Positions 1,346 through 5,529 of a DNA stretch of 64,000 bases are shown one piece after another. This stretch comes from Methanosarcina sp. KYL-1 (GTDB lineage: Archaea > Halobacteriota > Methanosarcinia > Methanosarcinales > Methanosarcinaceae). Position numbers and translations under genes: made by a program. The notes under the pieces are model-generated. The model had not been told where the DNA came from. It saw only the letters and a list, made by a program, of their open reading frames with translations, and did not search any database. How positions within the stretch are numbered: position 1 is the first letter of the stretch; each line of letters opens with the position of its first letter. Location of the stretch: contig NZ_VOUA01000003.1 of assembly GCF_024372725.1 (NCBI RefSeq), forward strand, positions 1 to 64,000. Reading direction: 5' to 3'.

Positions 1346-2053
1346 ATGATATCAAAAAAATCTTATTCACTGACTGCCGTCCCCATGGGCCACTCCAATG
1401 CTTACCTCCTTACGGCCGGTGGTTCCGCAGTTCTGGTAGATACCGGTTGCCCCGGTAAAATCAACAAGCTCGAATCCGCTCTCCGGGAAAACGGCCTGGA
1501 TTTTCCTGACCTCGGCCTGGTCATCCTTACCCACACCCACTATGACCACGCAGGGTGCCTTGCCGAAATCAAGGAGCGCAGCGGGGCAAAGGTCCTGGTG
1601 CATGAAGCAGAGGCAGGCTGCTTGGAAAAGGGCTATACTCCGTTTCCTAAAGGCACCATGTGGTTTTCCAGAATCATTTCAGGGCTGGCAAACAGCCTGT
1701 TTGCTTTCAGAGCAAAGTACGTACCTGTAAAACCTGACATTGTAATTAATAAAGAGTATGACCTTGGGTACTACCTGCCAGGGACAAAAGCCCGTGTCAT
1801 CCCCACGCCGGGGCACACCGAAGGTTCGGTCTCCGTAGTCCTCGGAAATGAAGAGGTAGTCGTGGGAGATACGCTATTTAACGACTTCCCTAAGACTGTT
1901 TTTCCCCCCTTTGCAAACGACGAAAAACAGCTTTTTAGAAGCTGGGAAAAACTGGCCGAAACAAGCTGTGCGACCTTCTACCCCGGACATGGAGGTGCGC
2001 TCTCGATTGAAAAGCTGGCGGATTCATATAGAAAACTGAGCAAAAGGGTCTAA
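1346..2053 (+). CDS. Metallo-beta-lactamase-fold hydrolase
   Basis: The 235-residue product carries the metal-binding THTHYDHAG motif near residue 66, the later histidine in TPGHTEG, the aspartate in VGDTLF and the C-terminal histidine in YPGHGG. Together these are the usual di-zinc ligands of the fold. The family includes glyoxalase II-like thioesterases and many uncharacterised hydrolases; nothing visible fixes the substrate. I prefer the ATG at 1346 because the longer frame from 1214 reads only through the 11-bp array. Shine-Dalgarno evidence is weak. Confidence 0.88.
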   Translation: MISKKSYSLTAVPMGHSNAYLLTAGGSAVLVDTGCPGKINKLESALRENGLDFPDLGLVILTHTHYDHAGCLAEIKERSGAKVLVHEAEAGCLEKGYTPFPKGTMWFSRIISGLANSLFAFRAKYVPVKPDIVINKEYDLGYYLPGTKARVIPTPGHTEGSVSVVLGNEEVVVGDTLFNDFPKTVFPPFANDEKQLFRSWEKLAETSCATFYPGHGGALSIEKLADSYRKLSKRV

Positions 2054-2174: not shown

Positions 2175-2828
2175 TTGAGCATTATCGAGCATTATCGGGA
2201 TTCTTTTTTGTATAATCAGGTAATTATAATTATTACAGATTTGAGTTCAACAGCTTCTTCCGGGGGGTCTTTACTGAAAGCTGAACCAAAAATCCAACCG
2301 ATAGGTAAACGGAAAACTCCTGAGACGTCTCTTGGACTGAGCGAAAGGATTACGATTGATACGCCTGCAGGTAAAATGCCGGTCCGAACAGGATTCAAGC
2401 TTTATGAAGATGGGAGCATAGAATCCGTAGAGCCGGAAGAGCCGGTTCCCGTCAAAACCCCTCTCGGCTCAATAAATGCGTAGGATGCAAGCGCAATAGG
2501 CATCGATGCGGATAAAAACTCCCTTGGCTTTGACAGGAACGGCAAATTGGCTTCCCTTGCCACCTTCGATATCATTACGGCCAAAAAAAGCAGCGGTGAG
2601 ACGAAGATCACTTTCTCGAAGCTGAAACCGGGCCCAATGGAAGACTACGAAAAAGTGCCGATTAAGTTGCACTTTGGCGATGATACCGTAACTGTTGATG
2701 ACGGCAGCAGCGCAAACGAGTACAGGATATCGGAATCCACGTTCAAAATCACAGGCGGAGACTATACGGAAGTAAAAACCTGTGGGGACTGCTCCAGCTA
2801 CAAGGGCTGCAATGTAACCTGGCTTTAA
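2175..2828 (+). CDS. Conserved hypothetical protein interrupted by an in-frame UAG codon
   Basis: Two open frames, 2175-2480 and 2484-2828, lie in the same reading frame and are separated by one TAG at 2481-2483; the true stop is TAA. Protein-like sequence runs smoothly across the amber codon, from TPLGSINA to DASAIGIDADKNS. From memory, related bacterial and archaeal proteins of this type have an ordinary residue, often Tyr, there. The C-terminal part has a CGDCSSYKGC cysteine cluster. Methanosarcina can decode UAG as pyrrolysine, so this may be one 217-residue protein; it could also be a nonsense-mutated pseudogene. No ATG precedes the amber codon: TTG codons at 2175 and 2241 are the candidate starts, and the N-terminus may be lost. 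Confidence 0.55.
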
Positions 2829-3007: not shown

Positions 3008-4210
3008 TCAAATGCCCCGCTTCTGCAAAACAAGCCATGCACCAAGAACCAGGGTCCCACAGCCGAGAGCAATTCCTCCCAAAACCGGAATCTTATCGGC
3101 CCAGTCCAGGGAAATGAACCACATCCCGACAGCGCCCAGCGTGAAATATGTGAAAATCAAAAGGGAGGAAGCAGACCCTGCATCCCTGTCGACCTGCTCA
3201 AGCACAAGGTTGTTGCTCGGCGGCCGGCTCAGGCCCATCGAAAAAGTTATCAGGAACATAGGGAGAGCAAAGCTCCAGGGGCCTTGCTGTCCGGCGATGA
3301 GGAGAAAAACACCTCCCAGGAAAATGCCTGCAAAACCGACGGTCATCAGGTGCCTGGAGTTGATGCTTCTTGTCAAGCGGAGGCAGGAGAAGGAGCCGAC
3401 CATCAGGGCAAGGGCGTTGAAGGCAAAGAAGTAACTGTATTTCTGTTCATTCAGGCCGAACTCGTTTACGTAAATGGCAGAAGAACCCGCGATGAAGCTG
3501 TACAGGGGAAAAAGGCTGACTGACATGACCAGGACCATGATAATATAGGAGGGGTTGAGCAGCAGCCGGCCGTAAGCGTCCATTACCTGGGAAATAGGTA
3601 TATCGGACATCACTTTCAATGTTTCCGGGAAGCGGAGGACACCCAGCATCCCGATTACTCCCATAACTGCCTGCACAAAGAAAATCCAGGGCCAGGAGAA
3701 ATCCACAAGGATCCAGCCGCCAACGACGGGGGCAAGCATGGGGGCAAGAGCCATGATAACCGCTATGTAGGCCAGGATCCGTTCCCGCTCCGGGCCTGAA
3801 AAAATGTCCTTTGTCATTGCCATAGACAGGGAGGAACTGGCAGCAGCTCCTGCAGCCTGCAGGATACGAAAGCCGATCAACATGGGGGCGCTGGATGCAA
3901 AGGCACAGAGCAGGCTTGCCAGCACGTAAACCGTAAGTCCGGTGAGGAGGGGACGGCGGCGGCCGAAGCGGTCGGAAATCGGGCCGTAGAAGAGCAGGAA
4001 AAATCCGTAGGTGACAAAAAAGCAGACAAGGATGAGGTTGATAACCGAGAGGGGCTGGTTCCAGTTCTCGGCAAGGGACGGGATGGCGGGTAAAATCATG
4101 TCCGTGGACAGGGCAGGAAAGGCGGTCAGGAGGGCCAGAAGGGGTATGGCTCCCTTTAAGTTTCCACTCAGTCTCCTGTTTAAATTATCTTCTTTTTGCT
4201 GGAAAGACAT
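3008..4210 (-). CDS. MFS drug-resistance transporter, Bcr/CflA type
   Basis: The 400-residue protein has about twelve hydrophobic segments and the family loop motif between TM2 and TM3, seen as GPISDRFGRRRPLL near residues 75-90. The N-terminal pattern (TDMILPAIPSLA) is typical of the Bcr/CflA subfamily of proton-driven multidrug exporters. Length and topology are complete. The gene is alone on the minus strand. The exported compound is unknown. The start is the ATG at 4210, and the preceding 500 bases hold no other gene. Confidence 0.9.
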   Translation of the reverse strand: MSFQQKEDNLNRRLSGNLKGAIPLLALLTAFPALSTDMILPAIPSLAENWNQPLSVINLILVCFFVTYGFFLLFYGPISDRFGRRRPLLTGLTVYVLASLLCAFASSAPMLIGFRILQAAGAAASSSLSMAMTKDIFSGPERERILAYIAVIMALAPMLAPVVGGWILVDFSWPWIFFVQAVMGVIGMLGVLRFPETLKVMSDIPISQVMDAYGRLLLNPSYIIMVLVMSVSLFPLYSFIAGSSAIYVNEFGLNEQKYSYFFAFNALALMVGSFSCLRLTRSINSRHLMTVGFAGIFLGGVFLLIAGQQGPWSFALPMFLITFSMGLSRPPSNNLVLEQVDRDAGSASSLLIFTYFTLGAVGMWFISLDWADKIPVLGGIALGCGTLVLGAWLVLQKRGI

Positions 4211-4722: not shown

Positions 4723-5529
4723 ATGAAACACTTAAGAAAATACGGCTCCCCTCCCTTCGATATAGCCGTCATCCACGGCGGCCCCGGTGCTCCCGGGGAA
4801 ATGGCTCCCGTAGCCAGGGAACTCTCTTCTATTGATTCTTGTGTTTCCTCCAGCTATGCCCGTGGCGTCCTTGAGCCCCTTCAAACTGAAACGACCCTTG
4901 AAGGCCAGGTCAGGGAACTGAAAACTGTTTTGGAAGAGCATGGAATCCTCCCAGTCACATTAATCGGTTTTTCCTGGGGGGCAATGCTCAGCTACATTTT
5001 CACAGCCAGGCGCCCCGAATTCGTAAAAAAACTCATCCTCGTCGGAAGCGGCCCCTACGAAGAAAAATACGCAGCAAACATCATGCAAACCCGGATAAGC
5101 AGGCTCAGCAAAGCAGAAAAAGAAGAAGTCTTTTCCCTGATGGAAATCCTGGACGGCCTTTCCCCGGAAAAGAAAAACGCTTCCCTGGCCAGATTCGGGG
5201 AGCTGATCTCCAGGGCCGACTCATACGACCCCCTTCCCCACCCCGACGAGGTTCTGGAATGCCGGTACGATATCCACAAAGGCGTATGGGAAGAAGCCAG
5301 TGAACTTAGAAGCAGCGGGAAGCTTCTGGAACCTGGAACGAAAATCAGTTGCCCTGTGGTCGCAATCCACGGGGACTATGACCCGCATCCATTTGAAGGG
5401 GTAAGAGAGCCCCTTTCCCGGGTCCTGAAGGACTTCAGGTTTATTTTGTTGGAGAAGTGCGGGCACAGGCCGTGGGTTGAGAGGCAGGCGAAGGAGAGGT
5501 TTTATGATGTGCTTAAGGGTGAAATTTAA
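4723..5529 (+). CDS. Alpha/beta hydrolase, proline iminopeptidase-like
   Basis: The 268-residue protein has the HGGPGAPG oxyanion-type motif near residue 19, the nucleophile elbow GFSWG near residue 87, an aspartate in GDYDPHP and the C-terminal histidine in KCGHRPW. These complete a Ser-Asp-His triad. The HGGPG signature is shared with prolyl iminopeptidases and related esterases or haloperoxidases, so cleavage of small amide or ester substrates is likely but the exact one is unknown. Length is normal. It starts at the ATG at 4723 after the hairpin spacer and stands alone. Confidence 0.85.
   Translation: MKHLRKYGSPPFDIAVIHGGPGAPGEMAPVARELSSIDSCVSSSYARGVLEPLQTETTLEGQVRELKTVLEEHGILPVTLIGFSWGAMLSYIFTARRPEFVKKLILVGSGPYEEKYAANIMQTRISRLSKAEKEEVFSLMEILDGLSPEKKNASLARFGELISRADSYDPLPHPDEVLECRYDIHKGVWEEASELRSSGKLLEPGTKISCPVVAIHGDYDPHPFEGVREPLSRVLKDFRFILLEKCGHRPWVERQAKERFYDVLKGEI

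Follow-up and report, generated by a model that had tools for sequence, protein, structure and literature searches.

An in-frame amber codon of Methanosarcina sp. KYL-1 lies in what is very probably a recently decayed pseudogene

The window analyzed here is the stretch of 64,000 nucleotides at the beginning of contig NZ_VOUA01000003.1 of Methanosarcina sp. KYL-1 (assembly GCF_024372725.1), a draft genome of 4.04 Mb in 66 contigs that is 99.74% complete. Close to its start, between genes for an MBL-fold hydrolase and an MFS-type transporter, lies the remnant of a protein-coding gene that is interrupted by a TAG codon. The features of this locus, with the evidence on which each was delimited, are the following:

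1346 to 2053, plus strand: MBL-fold hydrolase gene, upstream of the remnant
2175 to 2339, plus strand: 5' part of the open reading frame as first described, open by chance and of non-coding character (codon score, no homologue)
2325 to 2814, plus strand: remnant of the 3' half of the family gene, corresponding to orthologue residues ~150-312 (tblastn and blastn, syntenic locus of genome G004)
2481 to 2483, plus strand: in-frame TAG at the conserved Tyr202 (codon alignment)
2799 to 2801, plus strand: TAC (Tyr) replacing a Cys of the terminal Cys cluster (alignment position 161, C to Y)
2811 to 2817, plus strand: extra A (2811 or 2812) and the ancestral ATG TAA (2812-2817), out of frame (blastn against G004)
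2826 to 2828, plus strand: TAA now closing the frame, not the native stop of the family (translation, blastn alignment)
3008 to 4210, minus strand: MFS-type transporter gene, the downstream neighbour, named from its sequence character (synteny with G004, G026 and G009)
4723 to 5529, plus strand: alpha/beta hydrolase gene (proline iminopeptidase-like), common to the orthologous loci (synteny)

Two tandem arrays precede these genes. Positions 1-141 of the window consist of ACTCAGGTTCTGGA in 10 copies that are 100% identical, and positions 1204-1318 consist of 10.5 copies of TGGAACTCATT. The motif GGAACTC is present in both arrays, a membrane-protein gene lies between them, and part of the second array is open in the frame of the MBL-fold ORF.

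The protein family to which the remnant belongs was detected in 16 of 60 genomes (the window's own plus the relatives searched, one genome per species), all 16 of them within the window's own genus. Intact orthologues measure ~312 residues, run from a conserved MLTVET start to a terminal KGCM followed by the stop, and carry no stop at the position matching the TAG. Searches of Pfam and NCBIfam gave no match to the read-through product or to either of its halves, and for an intact orthologue the sole match was to MORN_2, below threshold (E 0.007). Judged from these searches, the family is probably restricted to Methanosarcina, with no function assigned. The MFS transporter followed by the alpha/beta hydrolase is also found 3' of the orthologue in G004, G026, and G009, and this shared gene order indicates that the remnant locus is orthologous to theirs. 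Frameshifts affect the same gene in other relatives, namely Methanosarcina sp. DH2 (G009), G020, and G018. Given these copies, the gene appears to be dispensable, and it would have been lost repeatedly unless the frameshifts are draft-assembly errors in those genomes.

Translation of positions 2175-2828 yields a frame that ends at the TAA and contains a single TAG, at residue 103, which is also the only stop across the 158 codons of the remnant frame. The G004 orthologue, which occupies the syntenic locus, aligns without interruption across this codon (73% amino acid identity by tblastn and 81% nucleotide identity by blastn). Since one orthologue is continuous over the TAG, its two sides have not been joined by chance, and coding sequence of one protein family flanks the codon on both sides, as a reading made from the sequence alone had proposed. 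The gene start at 2175 assumed in that reading did not hold. Homology to the family begins only at about 2325-2342, no in-frame ATG lies 5' of the homology in the remnant frame, and the first one (2373) falls within the homologous region. Moreover, the codon score against host usage is -0.20 per codon for positions 2163-2339, compared with +0.05 for 2340-2480 and +0.12 for 2484-2825.

At this locus the first ~150-155 residues of the family protein are missing, and the alignment sets in at orthologue residue ~150. Orthologue residues 1-149 had no match anywhere in the 99.7%-complete genome, nor was a divergent N-terminal half found when it was sought in other frames and elsewhere in the genome. 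Likewise, no paralogue of the remnant was found in the host genome. The DNA between 2054 and 2345 has no counterpart in 29 relatives, except for a match of 26 bases in one genome. These results suggest that positions 2175-2339 (~50 codons) are open by chance and occupy the place of the lost N-terminal half. We also considered a simple deletion joining the family gene to an MBL gene that always precedes it. This was rejected, as the MBL gene is absent upstream of the orthologue in both G004 and G026; MBL-fold orthologues are present in relatives.

Further lesions were found within the part of the gene that remains. At the position of the TAG all 11 aligned orthologues carry TAT or TAC, which agrees with the earlier suggestion of a tyrosine-like position one base away from these codons, and TAG was found there in none of the 11; the conservation used as a test for a pyrrolysine protein is thus lacking, and the window copy has changed from Tyr202 to TAG. 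At the 3' end, alignment to G004 revealed that relatives finish with TGC ATG TAA and the window copy with TGC A ATG TAA. The native stop (2815-2817) sits one base out of frame, and because of the extra base at 2811/2812 the frame runs on to an unrelated TAA. The sequence-only reading was therefore right that the frame closes at a TAA (2826-2828), but this codon is not the gene's own terminator. Ten other orthologues were compared, and all of them keep a terminal Cys that is replaced by Tyr in the window copy. Taken together, the window copy has six unique changes (the TAG and the Cys-to-Tyr change included) at 66 positions that are invariant in the other ten, compared with 0-4 for each other copy.

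Measured against intact orthologues at the same locus, the gene carries at least three lesions (the 5' loss, the TAG and the one-base insertion), where two independent disabling ones would mark a pseudogene, and for intactness (start, full length, and native stop) it falls short by ~150 N-terminal residues and by a stop that is out of frame. We are therefore confident that the remnant is a recently decayed pseudogene, truncated at its 5' end, interrupted by an amber codon and deprived of its stop, at the family's usual locus beside the MFS transporter. What decides for this reading is that the 5' half is missing and the native stop lost, neither of which was visible from the sequence alone, and we conclude that this is an ordinary broken gene rather than a new pyrrolysine protein. 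The 5' half, presumably along with the promoter, would have been removed by a deletion or rearrangement that broke the locus near 2325-2342, and the point lesions may have accrued while the gene was escaping selection or after it had escaped. Of the origins initially entertained for the TAG, a recent nonsense mutation is favoured by the Tyr in relatives and the other lesions in the gene.

Three observations count against a pseudogene. The first is that dN/dS is still low: pairwise values between the remnant and relatives (0.10-0.15) are not raised above those of other pairs (0.11-0.30), and hence give no direct sign of relaxed selection. Since dN/dS reflects the average over a long period in which the gene was functional, low values are compatible with recent loss, and they failed to separate recent decay from constraint; by recent decay we mean, from these values, only recent relative to species divergence. 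The second is that over 158 codons the frame has no stop other than the TAG. The third is that the TAG and the one-base insertion might each be draft-assembly errors, an origin that is hard to imagine for the missing half. We consider it very improbable that both are assembly or sequencing errors in an otherwise real, truncated gene: each is a change of one base in a draft of 66 contigs, but the genome is nearly complete (99.74%), no base-call error can remove the 5' half and put unrelated unique sequence there instead, and two separate errors plus a Cys-to-Tyr change inside 350 bases are unlikely.

The host is equipped to decode pyrrolysine. A profile match to PylS above the family cut-off, a tRNA-Pyl with anticodon CTA (pylT), and ORFs arranged as pylS, pylB, pylC, and pylD on the same 10-kb stretch were identified in its genome, and internal TAGs occur in its mtmB matches, mtbB, and mttB. 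The presence of pylTSBCD together with these methyltransferase genes makes UAG a readable codon in this host, and the use of UAG for pyrrolysine, initially assumed from the genus, is confirmed by the genes themselves. A full-length MtmB-family protein without TAG (C1:344408-345766) has Thr where pyrrolysine would stand (GRPGLSITG, compared with GRPGMGI-TAG-G), and two further TAG-free MtmB-family matches lie nearby (C1:326387-327709 and C1:346867-348186). In a host with tRNA-Pyl, a change from TAT or TAC to TAG is expected to be leaky. If transcribed and translated, the TAG of the remnant could be read as pyrrolysine, incidentally and with no sign of selection for that residue. The sequence-only reading had named TAC/TAT in orthologues combined with a host lacking pylT as evidence against pyrrolysine; the orthologues do carry these codons, but pylT is present. 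It is very hard to sustain that the C-terminal half is a functional truncated protein into which tRNA-Pyl inserts a pyrrolysine that is tolerated or adds function at the former Tyr site, for which the pyl genes, the amber-bearing methyltransferases, the near absence of TAG as a terminator (making UAG readthrough plausible) and the low dN/dS may be cited, when the TAG occurs in no orthologue and at an ordinary Tyr site, both ends of the gene are damaged independently of the TAG, with N-terminal half, native stop, and shared Cys all lost, and the only upstream codons are non-coding in character and lack an ATG.

Stop codon usage was sampled on 464 kb of the host genome (the window plus 400 kb) with a simple gene caller based on codon usage. 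The 306 called genes terminated in TGA (167), TAA (132), and TAG (7). In-frame coding sequence continued beyond the stop for four of the seven TAGs versus 10 of 299 TAA and TGA codons (Fisher p 9e-5, or 0.013 once two known methyltransferases are left out). These four internal TAGs belong to mtbB, mttB, and two unrelated genes, of PspC type and NosD type, and about three of the seven are plausible as true stops. In the PspC-domain gene (C1:7064-7858, minus strand) the TAG lies in the linker that leads to a transmembrane part of LiaI/LiaF type, where its paralogue (C1:5809-6318) and the G004 homologue have sense codons straight through; stop versus readthrough would yield two protein forms. In the NosD-like beta-helix protein (C1:226026-227243, minus strand) the TAG is inside the domain and is covered by the Pfam Beta_helix match. 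These two genes are better pyrrolysine candidates than the remnant. In two relatives the orthologue of the window's MBL-fold gene also has a single in-frame TAG, at different positions (a Ser in one case, an Arg in the other) and in an otherwise intact frame (G013:C14:7639-8322 and G008:C1:1456223-1456909). Coming from a small sample, these counts are suggestive of amber tolerance in the host lineage and do not amount to a test of it. Some archaea have reportedly (2025) been found to read every TAG as pyrrolysine. We tentatively raise the possibility, which we hold to be rather unlikely, that in this Methanosarcina lineage, with UAG rarely terminating genes and readily taken as pyrrolysine, a change from TAT or TAC to TAG is close to missense, and ambers drift into ordinary genes (the remnant, the PspC-LiaF-like and NosD-like genes, and the relatives' MBL-fold genes), giving scattered pyrrolysine proteins that are not methyltransferases. 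On its own the remnant carries little weight: one false candidate is struck from the pyrrolysine proteins, and a check of gene length and native stop suffices to dismiss such a candidate. A genome in which TAG is rarely terminal and several unrelated genes have a single in-frame TAG is, in turn, suited to asking how far a stop has moved towards sense.

Among known systems, the methyltransferases MtmB, MtbB, and MttB share with the remnant an in-frame TAG, coding sequence on both sides and a genome with pylTSBCD. Their TAGs are located in the active site and conserved across species (PMC8211752), whereas that of the remnant occurs in one genome only, at a Tyr position, in a gene with half of its length missing. 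Also comparable are the species-specific amber-interrupted genes of M. acetivorans (one annotated methylcobamide:CoM methylase and four annotated transposases), in which the TAG is likewise not conserved in other species. The remnant differs from them by its further disabling lesions, which make the pseudogene reading stronger than it is for those genes. It has been suggested that in genomes with tRNA-Pyl neutral evolution may permit in-frame UAG and be a source of pyrrolysine genes (PMC3639795), and the usual filter demands that the in-frame stop be conserved in another species, which excludes pseudogenes and sequencing errors (PMC1914089); the remnant does not pass it. A further parallel is a homologue of CobN that was at first put forward as a pyrrolysine protein but afterwards reinterpreted as a pseudogene (PMC1914089). 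Both are amber forms confined to a single species and accompanied by other lesions: an extra in-frame TAA in the CobN homologue, and in the remnant the lost 5' half together with the base inserted at the stop.
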